64,000 bases of DNA from Bolinopsis microptera. Its lineage: Eukaryota > Ctenophora > Tentaculata > Lobata > Bolinopsidae. The stretch is from contig NC_087076.1 of assembly GCF_026151205.1 (NCBI RefSeq), positions 8,904,902 through 8,968,901 of the forward strand, read 5' to 3'. The translations under genes and the position numbers were made by a program. Under the pieces are notes generated by a model, which saw only the letters and a program-made list of their open reading frames with translations, did not search any database and had not been told where the DNA came from. Shown here in pieces: positions 3,203 to 41,417 of the stretch (its first letter is position 1; each line of letters starts with the position of its first letter).

Positions 3203-5399
3203 TTAGTTGCATTCCAGAAGGAGCAGGTAGTAGAGATACCAGCACTTCAGGGCCTCTGTATAGTAGGGTCTCTGTAGGAGAGGAAGGTTGGGGAGTGATT
3301 ATCAGAGACATTACGGTAGTTATAAAGGGCGTGTGTTACAGAGAGACGTAGAACAGTGCGACATTGTGCGACAGTGCGACATTGAGGGACACTACATTTA
3401 CCTGTAGCCACAGTTTGGCTGAGATGGAACCTTATATAGTATTGTAGTCGTATAAAGTATTGCGGACAAGACTGATCTATGATAGCTTCTCTCGAATGAC
3501 TTTAGGCGACCAAATGTACTGCAACTAAAGTCCCCATACCCATTATGATTTTATTTCTCCAATCATGGATTAGGAGTGTGATTAAGCTTTGTAGGTCACA
3601 GTAACTCTCAGGAATAGAGTTTGAAAATCACTTTCTACCTCCCAATAACGCTGTATTGCGAAGAATAATAAAACCCTCCTTCTAATCAAGGATATGTTAC
3701 CACAACCGTTAACCTGTGTTTAGAGGAGGAATAGTGCGGTTGCCATTGTCCCTAATCCATCGGGTACCTTTGAGTCCAGGGTTAACTACCGGAGCTAACG
3801 TTCTCTCATCTCACTTACGTGCTCTCTTAAAATAATCCATCACATTGTCTCTCAAGAATTATCAGTGTAACTATTGCAACAACCATTGTCCCCAGTACAA
3901 GAGTAATATATTACGGCAGCACACGAGCAGTATACCCTAGTATTGTAATACCCACACTATGTAGTTATATTGGTGTAGTGTATACGGTGGGCCTGTCATC
4001 CAACAATTCTTAGGAAATTTACACGGGTGAGCAAAATCTGTAGTAATTTCATGTTGTATAAATATAATCTGTACTAATTCTACACATGATATTATACGGG
4101 CTTATACCCCACTGTCACGACAAGTCTACCCTCAAGAATTACAATTTGTCGGTGATGGTGTGGGTGTTTCCTGATCCGGAGAATTTATCAGCTTTTTTCA
4201 GGGTAAACAACATGGTCCATGGTCCAACAATAACACACATCCTGCTTTATCACAGCTCCAGTGTCTCAGAAATTCTCACTCATGACAGTGTTAATCACCC
4301 ATAATTTGGTCGGAGGTTAGGGGAAGAATAATTCGTAATATTGCGGTGTCCGACTATAATTTTAGGATTTCACAGCAAAACCCGGTGATGGTTATTCCAG
4401 ATTTTAACAGTTTGCGATCACGATCGTTGCTGATAAGAGTTTTAAAATTAAAAAGAGGTTGCCGACACATTTAGTTCTTATCAAGGTGGCTAATTTTAAA
4501 TCATTAAATATTTAGAATATTAAATCTTAGTAAAATTTAGAGTAAGAACATAATTGAATAATATGAACATAATATACCGACTGATGTTCGACTGTCAATG
4601 ACGGTTTCAGAAAGTGGCATTAGTTTCAATGGTTTTATTTTAAGGGCGGCCTCATTGCCTTAATCAGGGCGCATCTTTCAGTCTCGACTCTGAAAATATT
4701 CTTCCTGGTAATATAAGACTTAAGGGCATGAACAATTGAACATGACATAAGGGCACCGTAAATTGGAGATGTTACAGGATAATAATATGTACCCTAAATG
4801 GTACCCCAATAATTCAGGATTGGAAACTGATTGTAACCTAATTGCAGTCTAATTGTAACCACAGCAAGGACCCCATCGTGTGTGGTTGGTAAAGAAATAA
4901 TATTATGGTAGCTGGTAATTCTGTACCCCAATAACCTACTGTGTAAATGTAAATTGTAAGACATGTTTTAATATTCACTGCCAACTGCCAAGGCCTGGAG
5001 GCCCCATAAAACCTCATTTTTCACTGAACATGACTGTCAAATATGACTGCCCAAATAATTATGTCCAATCGTTACAGACTCCAACATCCCCGGTAGATTC
5101 ACCTCTCCAGTCCAGCTCGAGTCTCTCCTACTTATGATACACACACGTGTTGAGTGAAACTGAATATCACGTGCAATCACGTGACCATTTTAGCTATCAT
5201 TATGTTATCCTGTTGTAATATATTTTGAGAAATTTCCAGTTCAAGTCAGAGCTAGAAGTTATTAAAGAAGTAAGTTTTCACTACTTATATATTAGAGTAC
5301 GTGTTACGTGGAGAAGCTAGCGACTGTTGATGGAGGTGTGGTAGACATTGTGTCGGAGTCAACAGTCCGTACCAGGTACTACAAGTGGGGAGCATGTTC

Positions 5400-27920: not shown

Positions 27921-27927
27921 ATAGATT

Positions 27928-28113
27928 GAGGCAGCGGGATTAGCCTATTTTCCCCCTCTTACATAAGTTGGACCACACACAAGTTGCTAAACTCGTGTGT
28001 GGTCGTGTGTTAAATCAGCTGAGGCAGCGGGATTAGCCTATTTTCCCCCTCTTACATAAGTTGGACCACACACAAGTTGCTAAACTCGTGTGTGGTCGTG
28101 TGTTAAATCAGCT
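27928..28113. repeat. 93-bp tandem duplication with internal hairpin
   Basis: Two essentially identical 93-bp units (27928-28020 and 28021-28113). Each contains ACCACACAC and GTGTGTGGT separated by 14 bases, able to form a stem-loop. Confidence 0.85.
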
Positions 28114-28300: not shown

Positions 28301-28346
28301 TAACGTCTGCATTGTACCAACATAATTTGAATTACAGTCTTTACTT

Positions 28347-28612
28347 TATTTCTGCAAAGAGTTGATTTATTTCTGCAAAGAGTTGATTTATTTCTGCAAA
28401 GAGTTGATTTATTTCTGCATAGAGTTGATTTATTTCTGCAAAGAGTTGATTTATTTCTGCAAAGAGTTGATTTATTTCTGCATAGAGTTGATTTATTTCT
28501 GCAAAGAGTTGATTTATTTCTGCATAGAGTTGATTTATTTCTGCAAAGAGTTGATTTATTTCTTCATAGAGTTGATTTATTTCTGCAAAGAGTTGATTTA
28601 TTTCTGCATTAA
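28347..28612. repeat. 21-bp minisatellite, about 12 units
   Basis: The unit is GATTTATTTCTGCAAAGAGTT, with A/T variants at one position, repeated about 12 times. The downstream duplicate (29,487-29,510) has only one such unit in the same relative place, so the array expanded after the duplication. The open frame through it (repeating IYFCKEL) is a by-product. Confidence 0.9.
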
Positions 28613-29302
28613 TAGTTGATTTAAAGTCAATAGGCCGATTCGCAGTTTGCCTCGTTAATCCGTTTGTTTTTATTTTATGACAATATAATATATGAAAAAA
28701 TGGAAAAGAAATTACGAATTGATCGAATTCGCTTTTGTATTATTAGCGATTTTTGGCCCTAGTATTAGTAGAACTAGATGTTGTTACGGGGAAAAATGCC
28801 ACTTTTCTGCAACAAGCCTTTGTGATCTTTTAAAAATCCAAATAACAAATCATCGGACACAAATATGTAATATTTAAAGATCAAGAATCTGGTTAGAAAT
28901 ACAAATGAGGCCTAATCAGTCACGCGCACCACAAATGTGTGTTTTAAACTTTGACATCCTAGAACTCATAGGCCAATCAAGTTACTGTGTCTGTATTCGT
29001 ATTGTGTAAGCAGTCAGATCACATCATCCTGAGCTCTTCTTTCTTGCGTAAAAATGTGTACCAAAATGGACTGAAGCTAGTTCAGTTATGTTATGTTTAA
29101 AGTTTTTACAATGCGCATACGTGTATAGTAGTGGGGGCAGAGTGATAATAAATAATATATTCTTACACATTTAGTTAGCGAGCATAGAGAAACTGGCATT
29201 TGGCAAGCAAGGATCTGAGAGGCAGGGATAGTGAGGGAGTTGGGACCTCTCTATTCACTTGACTGTTAAACATTGTTTCTACTCGGCTACGTTCCTGCCA
29301 GC

Positions 29303-32300
29303 ATGTTCGTGGAGAAGAATACCCTCAGATGTGTTGCAGTTCTTGGTTCGTTGTCCTTGTTACTCCTTTATTTCAGAGATAGTATAGGTGAGAATGATTG
29401 TTGTTGTTTTGTTAAACTTTCATATTTTAAATTTAAATATAGCGTTTGTGTCGGCTTTATACCAGCGTAATTCAAATTATAGCCTTTATTCCTGCATAGA
29501 GTTGATTTAATGTCGGTCTAGGCCAATTCGCATTAAGCTACTTGTCCGATTAAAGGGGGTTAAGACGCATTTTCCCGGAATAAGCCGCTGCCACGTGACG
29601 AAGCATTATGCCTATAATGAGGCTGCAAGATCAAATTAAAAACATGTCCTGGTTTAATGTAAAACAATTAAAGAATTAAGTGAAACAGAACAGCGCAAAA
29701 ATAGTTCTGAGAAGAAAGAAAGTTAAAGGATCAGTCAGTTAAACGTTTTAAAAACATTCGCAATTTATTCGTATATATTTTGATGTTTAATATTAATAAG
29801 GATGTCCAAATCTTTGAAAATCAAATATAGTTAATATAATATGGCTGCCCGCCAGCCGCCATGTTATCATAACTATATTTGATTTTCCGCACATCTTTTT
29901 ATATCTTATCGTAGTATAAGTTGAATTAGTTGAACTGTTAGCCAACCAGATACGTTTTCAGAAGCTGATCTGGCGGGGTGGAAACAGTCACAAGAGTTCC
30001 TCAACATTAACATACACAACGAACAAGTACAAGTTGAGAAAGTACAGAAAGAGGAGTCTCACACATATTCAGAGTTACTCCCCGATTCGACCCCCACCAC
30101 AACAGTAACTTCTACTACTCCTAATTCAACACAGAATAATGACGACTCTTCTGATAAAGAGGAGGAGATTGAAACAGGTAGGAAATTATACCAGATGTAT
30201 ACCAGATGTATACCAGATTTATACCAGATGTATACCAGATGTATACCATATGTATACCAGATGTATACCAGATGTATACCATATGTATACCATATGTATA
30301 CCAGATGTATACCAGATGTATACCAGATGTATACCAGATTTAAACCAGATGCCCTCCCCCACTCCCAGACTGTCCTGCTCCGGGTGTTTTACCCCAGGTT
30401 TTCGTTCTTATAATCAATATCAATAATATCAGATAACGGTACCTGGAACAGTGCAGTTAAAGCAAGAAATCAGAGTTATAAAGGTTCGCTCTCTTTGGAA
30501 ATGGAGGTTATCATAGAGTCCGCTAAAGGTCACCATGTACAGCTTGATGATAGACTCAAGAGGACGATATCTTCCATCGATCAGGTAGTTATTGTTACCA
30601 TGGTAACTGTGATTATACGTAACTATAGTTACCATGGTAAATTTAATAATACGTAAGTTACTATTGATAATACATAGTAACCATGGGAAATGTTACCATG
30701 GTAAATACATAATGATACGTAACTAAAGTTACCATGGCAAATGTAATAATACGTAACTAAAATTACCATGGTAACTCCTCAGAGAAGTGGTGTAGCGCCC
30801 AGTCAGGCAACCCTACGAGACCACATCTCACAACAGTGTAAAACATTAGGACTTGACAACGGAGAGGTAGAAATTAAACCTAGACTAGTTTACTATAACA
30901 CTGAGCACAAGCTCATCTACGTGGCTAACCCTAAATGCGGTGAGTTTAGATGTCAGAAAAGCAATTTTAATTAATTAATGTGAAGCATTATCATTATCTA
31001 GCTAATTTTAATTTTCTTTGATAGATTGCAGTGGTAAGATTAGATTCTAATGTAAACTGGTGGGCCAATTAATTGTTTAATATAATAAAAATAAGCTTAT
31101 AATTATGAGAAGGCTTATTATTACCAGCAGGCAGAATTGACGTATTGTCTTGTTACTAAATCGCCTAAGAAAGTGTTGCCCCAACACTAGTTTTAAATAA
31201 AAGTCCTCGAGGTGACAAGGAAATGATTTCACAGGTAGCACCTCCTTTAAGAAGTTCATGTTGAAACTAGGAGGAGATAAAAGAGAATACTCCGAGATGG
31301 AGGAGGTACACAACGAGGAGAAGAATCCACTTTTAAAGTTAGTCCCACTTCACACAAAGTTAGTCAGATTTCACACAAAGTTAGTCACACTTCACACAAA
31401 GTTAGTCACACTTCACACAAAGTTAGTCACACTTCACACAAAGTTAGTCACACTACACACAAAGTTAGTCACACTTCACACAAAGTTAGTCACACTTCAC
31501 ACAAAGTTAGTCACACTACACACAAAGTTAGTCATACTTCACACAAAGTTAGTCAGACTTCACACAAAGTTAGTCCCACTTCACACAAAGTTAGTCCCAC
31601 TTCACACAAAGTTAGTCACACTTCGCACAAATTTAGTCACACTTCACACAAAGTTAGTCACACTTCACACAAAGTTAGTCAGACTTCACACAAAGTTAGT
31701 CACACTACACACAAAGTTAGTCATACTTCACACAAAGTTAGTCAGACTTCACACAAAGTTAGTCCCACTTCACACAAAGTTAGTCCCACTTCACACAAAG
31801 TTAGTCCCACTTCACACAAAGTTAGTCACACTTCGCACAAATTTAGTCACACTTCACACAAAGTTAGTCACACTTCACACAAAGTTAGTCAGACTTCACA
31901 CAAAGTTAGTCCCACTTCACACAAAGTTAGTCCCACTTCACACAAAGTTAGTCACACTACACACAAAGTTAGTCACACTTCGCACAAATTTAGTCACACT
32001 TCACACAAAGTTAGTCACACTTCACACAAAGTTAGTCACACTTCACACAAAGTTAGTCACACTTCGCACAAATTTAGTCACACTTCACACAAAGTTAGTC
32101 ACACTTCACACAAAGTTAGTCACACTTCACACAAAGTTAGTCACACTACACACAAAGTTAGTCACACTTCACACAAAGTTAGTCCCACTTCACACAAAGT
32201 TAGTCACACTACACACAAAGTTAGTCACACTTCACACAAAGTTAGTCCCACTTCACACAAAATCAGTCACACTTCACACAAAGTTAGTCACATTTCACAC

Positions 32301-34190
32301 AAAGTTAGTCACACTCCACACAAAGTTAGTCACACTTCGCATAAAGGTAGTCACACTTCTTTTGAATAATACACAGTTTACACTCCCTCTGTCCTTCAGG
32401 AGCCTCTGGGAAGCACCTCTAGAGTTGCAAAAGGAAGCTTTGAGAACATACTACAAAGTAACATTCGTCAGAAACCCCTTAGTTCGTCTTGTGAGCGGGT
32501 ACAGGAACAAGATAGTAAGAATTCCTAAGGGGCATTACGTGGACCAAATACAGGTACAGCCCCCGGCCCCCCCCCCCCTGTATTAGTGCTTTTCATGCAA
32601 CAAGTAAAACAAATCCTTTATGTCATGTTTCCAGGGTTTGGACTGGAATTTCCCGCTTAAAGAACCTCCATCACGTTACATTACATAATTTTCTGAAACA
32701 TATATTACATTTACAATAAATTATGCAATATCATAACATTACAATCAACAAAATAAATTTAATCGCAGAATCTCAAATGCAAATAATCGTAAATTAAACA
32801 CAAAAAACAAATAAACATGCAATAAATGAATATACGAATGCGCATCTTTTGTCAACTTACTCCTTCATAAAAGTAGTATGATATAACACTAAACAGCAAA
32901 ACCCGATTTACTGTGCAGTATACATTTTAGGGGGCATACAGTATACACCAAAACTGTCCAACCCAAATGACCTCATAGGAAGCTCAGTAACCATCTAGCG
33001 CAACGTTTCCACACCAAAAATTGTTTTCGAGGATTCCCATTTTTGTAATCGAGCATTTCCTGGTTAAAGTGCATCTTTCGGAAAAGCACAATTTGTTTTG
33101 TTGAGAGGCTATAAGTCAATCATTTCTTGTGATATCGAGCTGAAATGTTGCACGAAGTTTATTCATATCTTGTTCAAGATGTGTGTAAAATCTTGATATC
33201 GTATCGGAAAAGGCTGCGTTTTATAAAATGCACTTTGACCAGGAAATGCTCGATTACAAAAATGGGAATCCTCCACAAAAAATTGTATGGTATGGAAAGG
33301 GTGCGCTAGATGGTCACTGAACTTCCTATGAGGTCATTTGGGTTGGAAAGTTTTGGTGTATGCCCCCTTAAGAGGTAAGGCCTTGATTCAAATAGCAGAA
33401 TTGTCTACGTTTTGAGCTAAGGTTTTTGGGTTAGAAAAAAAAAGAATTAAAAACATGTACCTGGCAGGAGATTATAGCTCAGAACTACGGAGTGGATGCG
33501 GCACTGAGTTGGATGCCAAGGAGGCAGTACCGGCCCTCGTTCGAACAGTTTGTAGAGTACCTTATCTACACGGGAAATGGTAATTAATTAAACATACTAA
33601 TTAATTATTTAGCTAATTGACTTGTTCAGTTAATTACAATGTGTTGATAATATTCGGTTTATGATTGTAAGCTAAGTAGTTGTAACAGTAAGCCTTGTAT
33701 TTGAGAAAATAATGTAAATTAATTAAAACTATTGGGCAGCTAGAGAGAATTACCACTGGGCCCCGTTTGCAGACTATATAGGGTTATGTGGCTCAACAGT
33801 AAAGTACGATCTTATCGCACAGCTCGAAACAGCACATCAGCACGTAGAGGAGATGAAGGAGATGGTAAGTTAATCTACAAGTTTAGATCTAGGGTGAAAT
33901 ACTGATATTTTAAACCAAGTTTACACTAATTACTAATTACTAAATACTAATTATTACAGGTGCCAAGTTTAAAAGATATTCCCTTTCCCCCGAGCCGGAC
34001 TGAAAGAGCAGCGGATCAGTACAGTTCGGAGGAAGTGACCGCCCTGGCCTTCTCCAACCTGACCGAAACACTGAAAACAGGCGTTTATAAGCTGTACGAG
34101 AAAGAGATCAAATTATTGGGCTATTCACTGATACACGATCAAAACTTTCCCTTTCTCACATCGGCAACTGTTCATTTAGAGGATATATAG
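29303..34190 (+). CDS. Golgi-type carbohydrate sulfotransferase (Sulfotransfer_2 / CHST8-14-like)
   Basis: This family moves sulfate from PAPS to sugars of glycoproteins or glycosaminoglycans in the Golgi lumen. The exons are 29303-29387, 29962-30177, 30433-30584, 30783-30939, 31235-31337, 32400-32553, 33468-33579, 33740-33864 and 33960-34190. All phases match, giving 444 residues. The layout is a short cytosolic tail with a type II signal anchor (CVAVLGSLSLLLLYF), then a Thr/Ser/acidic stem (exon 2), then the catalytic domain. The 5'-PAPS motif NPKCGSTSFKK spans exons 4-5, and the 3'-PAPS motif FVRNPLVRLVSGY is in exon 6. HWAPF...YDLIAQLET (exon 8) and GVYKLYEKEIKLLGYS (exon 9) fit the family's C-terminus. 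The acceptor sugar cannot be told. Introns 2, 3 and 5 each hold a tandem repeat, and intron 5 could be translated through. Intron 6 holds a foldback transposon. Confidence 0.93.
30187..30350. repeat. 11-bp minisatellite in sulfotransferase intron 2
   Basis: The unit TACCAGATGTA repeats about 14 times, starting ten bases after the donor. The unit embeds GTATAC palindromes. Open frames across it are artefacts of the short period. Confidence 0.9.
30595..30776. repeat. Imperfect tandem repeat of palindromes filling sulfotransferase intron 3
   Basis: Units of roughly 34-40 bp each hold the palindrome TTACCATGGTAA or a close variant (six occurrences) and usually TACGTAA. The last one touches the acceptor (CCATGGTAACTCCTCAG). 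The intron is nearly all repeat. Confidence 0.85.
31325..32360 (+). repeat. 21-bp minisatellite that amplifies the intron 5 splice donor, about 48 units
   Basis: Units read CACTTCACACAAA followed by GTTAGTCA. The real exon 5 end reads CCACTTTTAAA then GTTAGTCC, so the unit looks like a copy of the exon-intron junction. Most units keep GTTAGT; four have the donor G changed to T (CAAATTTAGT) and one reads AAAATCAGT. The array is free of stop codons in the gene's frame, where each unit adds KLVTLHT. See the findings. Confidence 0.92.
32930..33367. mobile_element. Foldback MITE in sulfotransferase intron 6, piggyBac-like ends
   Basis: The ends are GGGGGCATACAG... and ...GTATGCCCCC, with TTTA on the left and TTAA on the right. 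Inverted arms share GAGGATTCCCATTTTTGTAA, GAGCATTTCCTGGT and the GACCTCATAGGAAG block. There is no ORF. The TTAA-like flank and GGGGGC start resemble the element at 47,271-48,006. Fragments of the arm also occur at 56,224-56,478. Confidence 0.8.
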
Positions 34191-38865: not shown

Positions 38866-41417
38866 TTAAAACTGCACAGATGTTGGGGCACGAGAAATCA
38901 TATCCACCCCACTCCCAACCTCATCATCAGAGTCCATCCCACTGTGTCCCACCCTGACATGAGGTCCAGTATCAGTGGCTTCATTAACAATAACAGGAGA
39001 AATGTGGTAAGTAGACAAGCTCCTGACACGTCTCAAGAAGAACTGAGAGGTAAGGGTGTATGTGAGGGGGTTTACCACAACTGAGAAGTAGTAGAAGAGG
39101 TAGGTGAAGACGAAGACCTGACTGGAGACCACACCCCGGTAGTAGGAGGACACCACCATGAAGGGCAACCAGCAGGCACAGTAGAAGAAGGTAACAAAGC
39201 AGCCCCGTCTGGTTAACCTCAGAACGCCCGGTACCTGGTACTTGGTGTGGTAGTAGCCCACTATCACGTACATTACAGCACACACCACAGTCGGGGTGTA
39301 GAAGAACAACACTGACTGGGAGGTCATGTACGCGGGGTGGGACGTGCCCGTGAAGTCACAGCGGCGTGATTTGTTGCTGTATTGGATGTAGAAACTGTGG
39401 GGTGTGATGTGACCCTTTATTGTGAAGGAGGTGAGAAAGAGAGCCGGTATTAGCCAGGAGACTAAGCTGAGTTTTATCATGAACCAGTTGGTGCAGCGGT
39501 CAAATCCTCTCACTGAAAATCATAATGTTAGTGAGACAAATCTTAGATAAGGGCTCTTATTCTATCATCAAAGTTACCATCAGATTAGGCGGTAAATTAC
39601 GTGACTGTGATAAAAAAGAACTTGTCGAAATTCAACCAAAGTCGTCAAACAGATTACACAATACACCGTAAACTGTACCATGCTGAAGTTTGGGATAAAA
39701 GTTCTATAACATAAGTCCAGATTTAAAGAGGCCATATTACCCGTGACGACTAAGATGGATAGAGTGATAGGCACGATCACCAACAAATCCACTTTTGAGC
39801 AGAAGGAAACAATGTAAGTAGTAACCACACAGAAACCCCGGTTGTCAAACAGCTTCTGGAGGAACAAGCCTGCACAATAATTGGAAGTGAATTTTCCGAC
39901 TGTGTGATTAATTTATGAGATCAAATAAATTCCAAATTAAAGTAGGAAGGAAGAAAGAAGCTTTTTATTTGAACTTCTTTGCTGGTGCTGATATTATCGA
40001 AAGAACATTCCTAAGCAGCTCATTTAGTCCCACAATCTCAATATTCAGAATTATTTAAATCTTACCTGGTCCCCTAATGAGACAAGCAACAAGAGAGAAG
40101 ACTAAGTTGGAGATAGCGAGGTTGATGTAGACAATCTTCTGAGCGATAATCCGCTGCTTGTACAGACTGTGAAGCAGAAATGCCAATAAGAAGCTGTTCA
40201 GGGTCACGCCCACACAACCTGGACAGGAGTGTTAGAACTGAAGGATAACGCCCACACAACCTGGTCAGGAGTGTTATAACTGAAGGATAACGCCCACACA
40301 ACCTGGACAGGAGTGTTAGAACTGAAGGATAACGCCCACACAACCTAGACAGGAGTGTTATAACTGAAGGATAACGCCCACACAACCTGGACAGGAGTGT
40401 TAGAACTGAAGGATAAAGCCCACACAACCTGGACAGGAGTGTTAGAACTGAAGGATAACGCCCACACAACCTGGACAGGAGTGTTAGAACTGAAGGATAA
40501 CGCCCACACAACCTGGACAGGAGTGTTAGAACTGAAGGATAACGCCCACACAACCTGGACAGGAGTGTTAGAACTGAAGGATAACACCCACACAACCTGG
40601 AAAGAAGTGTTAGAACTGAAGGATAACGCCCACACAACCTGGACAGGAGTGTTAGAACTGAAGGATAACGCCCACACAACCTAGACAGGAGTGTTAGAAC
40701 TGAAGGATAACGCCCACACAACCTGGACAGGAGTGTTAGAACTGAAGGATAACGCCCACACAACCTAGACAAGAGTGTTAGAACTGAAGAATAACGCCCA
40801 CACAACCTAGACAAGAGTGTTAGAACTGAAGGATAACGCCCACACAACCTAGACAAGAGTGTTAGAACTGAAGGATAACGCCCACACAACCTGGAAAGAA
40901 GTGTTAGAACTGAAGGATAACGCCCACACAACCTAGACAGGAGTGTTAGAACTGAAGGATAACGCCCACACAACCTGGACAGGAGTGTTAGAACTGAAGG
41001 ATAACGCCCACACAACCTGGACAGGAGTGTTAGAACTGAAGGATAACGCCCACACAGCCTGGACAGGAGTGTTAGAACTGAAGGATAACGCCCACACAAC
41101 CTAGACAAGAGTGTTAGAACTGAAGGATAACGCCCACACAACCTGGAAAGAAGTGTTAGAACTGAAGGATAACGCCCACACAACCTAGACAGTAGACAGG
41201 AGTGTTAGAACTGAAGGATCGTTCAAATATTCGTAATATTATTATTTATTAGTAAGAATATTCGTAACATTCAGTGATCTGTCCATTCCAGACCCCCGCC
41301 CTCTTATCGGCTGTATTAGCATACAGCTCTCTCCTTTTACTTACCTATTATAATTAGAGAGTATGCGGTGAAAAGAGCCAAAGAATCTGCCTCAGAAGCT
41401 TCACCACTCTCGACCAT
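38866..41417 (-). CDS. Rhodopsin-like (class A) G-protein-coupled receptor
   Basis: A seven-helix receptor of 333 residues. The exons on the minus strand are 41417-41345, 40218-40066, 39869-39741 and 39512-38866, with all phases matching. Helix 1 is split by intron 1 (AYSLIIIG then CVGVTLNSFLLAFLL, holding the conserved N). Helix 2 has YINLAISNLVFSLVA. The helix 3 cysteine is in NRGFCVVTTY, and the second loop has a cysteine in RRCDF. The DRY position reads FDRC, helix 4 has LVSWLIPA, helix 6 has FYCACWLPF, and helix 7 has VVNPLTYTL (NPxxY). Ligand class is not recognisable. The tyrosine of DRY is replaced by cysteine, which occurs in some class A receptors. Intron 1 is dominated by a minisatellite whose unit contains the exon 2 splice acceptor. 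Confidence 0.92.
40209..41215 (-). repeat. 42-bp minisatellite that amplifies the exon 2 splice acceptor, about 23 units
   Basis: On the coding (minus) strand each unit reads GTTGTGTGGGCGTTATCC, then TTCAGTTCTAACACTCCTG, then TCCAG. That is the start of exon 2, a branch-point-like CTAAC, a pyrimidine stretch and an AG. Variants change CCAG to CTAG or CTGTCC to CTTTCC, and I see none that loses the AG. Only the last copy (40,218) leads into real coding sequence. Long open frames on both strands across this array are period artefacts. Confidence 0.93.

Follow-up and report, generated by a model that had tools for sequence, protein, structure and literature searches.

A 21-bp minisatellite of donor-like units fills intron 5 of a ctenophore sulfotransferase-like gene: probably a neutral array spliced mainly at its first donor

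What does a splice donor do when it is repeated dozens of times along its own intron? The question is raised by a sulfotransferase-like gene in a 64,000-nucleotide stretch of the genome of the ctenophore Bolinopsis microptera (contig NC_087076.1, positions 8,904,902 to 8,968,901, forward strand; hereafter the window), whose fifth intron consists almost wholly of a 21-bp minisatellite with units that mostly still read as splice donors. The original prediction from this sequence was that the units serve as a ladder of alternative donors, each step adding seven residues to the enzyme. We favor a plainer reading. With a probability of roughly three in four, the array is a neutral "mirage", the term used for minisatellite-like duplications in amphioxus that span an exon-intron boundary at either end of an intron and carry splice signals in many of their units (PMC3087553), and it would be spliced mainly at its first donor without having any selected ladder function.

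The spliced protein, which has a hydrophobic stretch at its N-terminus, matches the PF03567 (Sulfotransfer_2) profile end to end (118.3 bits against a cut-off of 22, profile positions 5-252 of 252). Intron 5 falls within this match, between two regions that we take to be the two 3'-phosphoadenosine 5'-phosphosulfate (PAPS)-binding motifs of sulfotransferases, where the original prediction had correctly placed the insert. Solved relatives were sought with the sequence of the spliced protein; the search yielded no sulfotransferase structure, only four weak and unrelated matches (best E 0.029). Tandem Repeats Finder (TRF) reported one array in intron 5, with a period of 21, 48.8 copies and 93% matches (Table 1). 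Among the 48 whole units, 43 start with AAAGTTAGT, four with AAATTTAGT and one with AAAATCAGT, and 13 of the 48 are identical to the consensus. The array begins at 31335 and exon 5 ends at 31337, which places the exon-intron boundary inside the tandem array, as in mirages, and the unit is likewise short (mirage units are 10-72 bp in Adh3 and ~150-160 bp in the globins). Thus, the claim that the boundary is copied about 48 times, mostly as AAA/GTTAGT (the slash marking the junction), stands for the number of units and the donor, but the exon contributes merely the three nucleotides AAA. The 12 exon bases upstream of them share 3 positions with the unit, so that the boundary can be called copied only in a shallow sense. 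Units have also been duplicated in blocks, with the longest repeated block spanning 6 units compared to a mean of 3.2 in shuffled arrays, a length reached in 4 of 1000 shuffles.

These features suggest how the array may have arisen. Duplication in tandem across the junction of exon 5 and intron 5 would have generated 21-nt units in which the three terminal bases of the exon are followed by the beginning of the intron, and the array would then have expanded, with homogenization in blocks, until it occupied nearly the whole intron. The first donor would be used in most transcripts, perhaps with a minor in-frame tail from the next few units. On this sequence-based account a low-level ladder is possible, while a conserved or selected one is unlikely.

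No stop interrupts the frame that leads out of exon 5, along the array and on into exon 6. This open frame is 456 codons long, and coordinates, TRF and frame all agree with the predicted 21-bp unit, 1,062-bp intron and intron length divisible by three. Both the open frame and the intron length follow from the unit being 21 nt long, since a unit that is stop-free in one frame stays open at any array length. Arrays of a dinucleotide-shuffled unit were open in a given frame in 85% of trials; the figure was 63% for arrays of a random 21-mer and 38% for the 57-nt intron tail with its mononucleotides shuffled. In the consensus array, two of the three forward frames lack stops, and of the 15 intron lengths measured in this gene and the sister gene described below, 6 are divisible by three. 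The open frame is therefore weak evidence for a coding or ladder role.

A closer test is provided by a sister gene. Searches of the genome (264.65 Mb in 232 contigs) with three of the window gene's exon peptides yielded a single close relative each time, on contig C13, with 82%, 83% and 81% identity, whereas the other matches for two of the three peptides had at most 64% identity. Exons 4-9 have equal lengths in both genes, with a pairwise ratio of nonsynonymous to synonymous substitution rates (dN/dS) of 0.18, averaged over both branches, and a dS of 0.38. Intron 5 of the C13 gene (L001:3183-3509, 327 nt) also carries an array after the same donor, with 14 units compared to 48 in the window gene, so that the array probably predates the gene duplication. 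Its units have diverged: AAAGTTAGT is kept by 1 of 14 (the first only), GTTAGT by 5 of 14 and GT by 11 of 14, and two 23-nt units disrupt the 21-nt register. Splicing at offsets 0, 21, 42 and 63 would be in frame and stop-free, while the other 10 of the 14 offsets lead to a premature stop (3 of these lack GT as well), and retention of the intron would introduce 6 stops. Conservation of donor signal and frame in a related gene, a test that we added for arrays of the type found in human IFI6 (see below), was therefore not found. Judged by its sequence, the C13 gene could no longer give rise to either a long ladder or a retained form, although a short, three-step ladder is possible there.

Nor was constraint seen within the array of the window gene. 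Compared with the unit consensus there are 11 variant types, of which 3 are synonymous and 8 are not, whereas 16 of the 63 possible single changes would be synonymous; no selection on the peptide was seen, the synonymous share being near that expected without it. Three of the 11 variant types fall within the 9 donor positions of the 21 (P = 0.23), which is no significant excess of conservation of the donor, although the power of both tests is low because the units copy one another in blocks. Together with the broken array of the sister gene, these counts do not support reading the array as an isoform ladder under constraint.

A number of observations nonetheless weigh against a neutral array. 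All 43 donor-like sites give stop-free, in-frame products when joined to exon 6, as had been calculated, and the donor nonamer is kept by 42 of the 47 inner units. All 9 nt of the donor are shared by the 43 sites and give the first of them no advantage; its predominant use is inferred. The donor is weak besides. With the 5' end of U1, AAAGTTAGT pairs at -1.6 kcal/mol, less stably than any other donor of the gene (-5.1 to -10.7 at the remaining seven), and a stronger site, AAAG/GTAGTC at 32347 (-6.3 compared to -1.6 for the array sites), lies out of frame 53 nt from exon 6. Such a weak native donor cuts both ways and could favor retention or inner sites; it is also found unchanged in the C13 gene, and another gene (L004) seems, by eye, to have a GTTAGT donor as well. 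The C13 gene is itself an imperfect witness. Its exons 2-9 form one stop-free frame, but exon 1 was not found within the 12 kb fetched, and no AG acceptor precedes the exon 2 match, so the gene may have an alternative start or may be a copy decaying at its 5' end. If it is decaying, its broken array says less about the window gene, and our confidence has been lowered slightly on this account. Published cases also show that such repeats can reach the mRNA: the repeat units of IFI6 serve as donors and give three mRNAs (PMC4526556), and in a human set of repeat-driven intron modifications 66% also had repeat-retaining transcripts (PMC2812944).

An IFI6-like ladder, with the spliceosome picking one of several identical donors at the start of the array and lengthening the variable linker by seven residues per step, would make use of the in-frame sites and would accord with our own reading of the alignments, in which the length of this linker differs among relatives; its best remaining argument is the presence of a weak donor in many copies, which would make inner sites or retention plausible. 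We consider it unlikely, given that it is largely not kept in the sister gene, that no constraint was detected at the peptide level, and that amphioxus mirages are reported to splice normally (PMC3087553 and PMC3902484). Retention makes a different proposal, namely that the array is coding and that intron 5 is never or only sometimes removed, leaving a repeat domain of ~354 residues, perhaps a coiled coil. Complete retention would indeed give a stop-free protein of 802 rather than 448 residues, as originally predicted, and each unit of the retained frame encodes a heptad whose two leucine positions are both occupied by leucine in 45 of the 48 units. The 456-residue frame also exceeds the Pfam cut-offs for five families that are coiled-coil-like or little known (ADIP, 44.9 bits; MscS_porin, 39.5; ATG16, 33.7; Spc24, 26.6; DUF2408, 25.1); these points, too, count against a purely intronic array. 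We take the Pfam matches as an effect of the seven-residue period and give the leucine heptads little weight because a 21-nt period yields a seven-residue repeat by itself and because proline occurs in 10 of the 48 units. With the complete sulfotransferase profile restored by splicing, the donor, pyrimidine tract and AG of intron 5 all in place, and stops in the intron of the sister gene, a coding array is highly improbable. We regard an assembly artefact as just as improbable: tandem arrays are often mis-sized in assemblies, but here the units differ from one another and carry variants shared in blocks, and the sister gene has a diverged copy. Only the number of copies might be off.

A neutral array spliced mainly at its first donor thus remains our preferred reading. 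A bolder possibility, which we consider a long shot, is that the weak donor is tolerated through its 43 repeats: U1 would be captured along the array, giving a ladder of in-frame mRNAs with a spread set by repeat number, and the C13 gene would be a copy that has lost all but the first steps, its first four offsets being still in frame. If this were true, each step would insert seven residues, one leucine heptad, into the variable linker between the co-substrate motifs. On any reading, this run of 43 identical donor-like sites, all in frame, is a natural test case for spliceosomal choice between equal sites.

Across the whole genome, a search with four unit copies listed 22 matches, 14 in the window array, 4 in the C13 gene and 4 on contig C2, although the search skips common words and further matches may exist. 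The C2 matches are weaker (E 3e-9 to 1e-7) and lie in two 20-bp arrays of a different unit, and we therefore rejected the idea that the unit is a dispersed element. These two arrays (L002:2411-3418 and L003:1006-2388) have almost identical units, resemble each other in one flank and are ~160 kb apart; they look like a duplicated or mobile segment carrying a minisatellite. Donor-like minisatellites are common in this genome, and a control word matched in dinucleotides forms minisatellites about as often. Counted as overlapping places rather than arrays, AGGTAAGT occurs three in a row at 372+312 places compared to 0+0 for its reversed control, and AAGTTAGT at 197+455 compared to 4+12. However, AGTAAGGT, a permutation of AGGTAAGT with the same dinucleotides, occurs at 120+468 places (5+16 for its own reversed control), and a genome-wide excess of donor-type minisatellites was rejected with the control word nearly as frequent (588 compared to 684).

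The sulfotransferase family is large and partly intronless. A genome search with PF03567 gave 82 matches, of which, by our own count, 46 run from profile position 20 or earlier to position 190 or later without a stop; since these are long single open frames, many relatives have no intron at the position of intron 5. We also considered intron 5 as a newly gained intron, but a cluster on contig C1 carries, in our reading, an intron of phase 2 within that variable linker, so that gain was not shown. All protein-family matches listed from the genome lie on contigs C1-C13. Ionotropic glutamate receptor genes (L019, L022, L024-L026) likewise occur as single open frames of at least 900 codons. An ionotropic glutamate receptor gene of this genome was by far most similar to ML032222a iGluR from Mnemiopsis (404.5 bits), ahead of a kainate-like receptor (230.2 bits) and of kainate 2 and GluA2 entries (about 146 bits and lower), in keeping with a ctenophore genome. 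COX1 was searched for in the assembly and not found.

Table 1. Positions, within the window, of the sulfotransferase-like gene, its exons and its array-bearing introns.
Feature	Positions	Strand	Remarks
Sulfotransferase-like gene	29303-34190	+	9 exons, 448 aa; single open frame once spliced, GT-AG at all 8 introns
Exons 1-4	29303-29387, 29950-30177, 30433-30584, 30783-30939	+	
Intron 2	30178-30432	+	About two thirds an 11-bp array (30187-30351), starting at intron base 10
Intron 3	30585-30782	+	Mostly a degenerate 34-bp array (30590-30774), starting at intron base 6
Exon 5	31235-31337	+	STSFKK motif inside; phase 2 end
Intron 5	31338-32399	+	1,062 nt, phase 2, donor AAA/GTTAGT, acceptor TCTGTCCTTCAG/GA
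21-bp minisatellite across the exon 5 / intron 5 boundary	31335-32359	+	48 whole units and a partial one; TRF
Partial 49th unit with AAAG/GTAGTC, then pyrimidine-rich tail and acceptor	32343-32399	+	
Exon 6	32400-32553	+	Contains FVRNPLVRLVSGYR
Exons 6-9	32400-32553, 33468-33579, 33740-33864, 33960-34190	+	

Intron 5 is not the only place in these two genes where a minisatellite meets a splice site. At the end of intron 7 of the C13 gene, a tandem repeat of ~41-43 nt (L001:4222-4348) spans the acceptor of exon 8, which starts at 4336, and contains three copies of GGCAG/CTAGAGA at 4252, 4295 and 4336, of which the first would run into a stop after 8 codons and the second after 4; a single such acceptor (33740) is present in the window gene. 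From its sequence this acceptor tandem appears to be the mirror image of the donor array of intron 5, and the gene pair thus carries boundary arrays at a donor and at an acceptor alike, as mirages do. With this acceptor tandem, and with introns 2 and 3 of the window gene made up largely of arrays, minisatellites that span boundaries and fill introns are a habit of this gene pair rather than a device at one place. In the C13 gene TRF listed neither the 11-bp nor the 34-bp intron array, and intron 3 contains a (CT)155 run.

Tandem arrays listed by TRF cover 6.8% of the window. A 42-bp array with 23.5 copies and 95% matches lies at 40206-41192, its unit again a multiple of three. Another 21-bp array, with 13.2 copies, is found at 28345-28623, ~700 bp upstream of exon 1, and is by eye unrelated to the intron 5 unit, and a 93-bp sequence is present in two identical tandem copies at 27927-28113.

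Both a minisatellite of splice donors and a series of isoforms arising from one are already in print. The isoform series is that of human IFI6 (also 6-16 or G1P3), in which a minisatellite lies at the donor and its units can act as donors (PMC4526556). The intron 5 array is similar in its position and in having units that are potential donors; it differs in that use of inner donors in IFI6 was reported from RNA, whereas our case is read from DNA and has largely not been kept by the sister gene. Duplicated human genes offer a second comparison, with internal tandem repeats at exon-intron boundaries that average 30-bp units repeated 4 times (PMC2812944). Like the intron 5 array, these repeats sit at boundaries and vary between sister genes; unlike it, they belong to segmental duplications and consist of those few ~30-bp units.

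The nearest likeness is to the amphioxus mirages of Adh3, TnC and the globins BflGb6 and BflGb9, which share with intron 5 the duplication of the boundary, the splice signals within units and the homogenization within clusters (PMC3087553 and PMC3902484). The Adh3 mirage is unstable in length, also somatically, and reverse transcription PCR (RT-PCR) suggests that regular splicing is undisturbed (PMC3087553). The second report adds the TnC mirage, likens repeats of PGBD5 to mirages and states that the Adh and TnC mirages yield no aberrant mRNAs (PMC3902484). In the open-access literature that we found, mirages are described only for lancelets, and the pair of donor and acceptor arrays in ctenophore sister genes suggests that boundary-spanning minisatellites arise more widely in animals. 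Unlike the lancelet examples, the intron 5 array is that of a ctenophore, takes up nearly the whole of its intron with 48 short units, and has every one of its donor-like units in frame.

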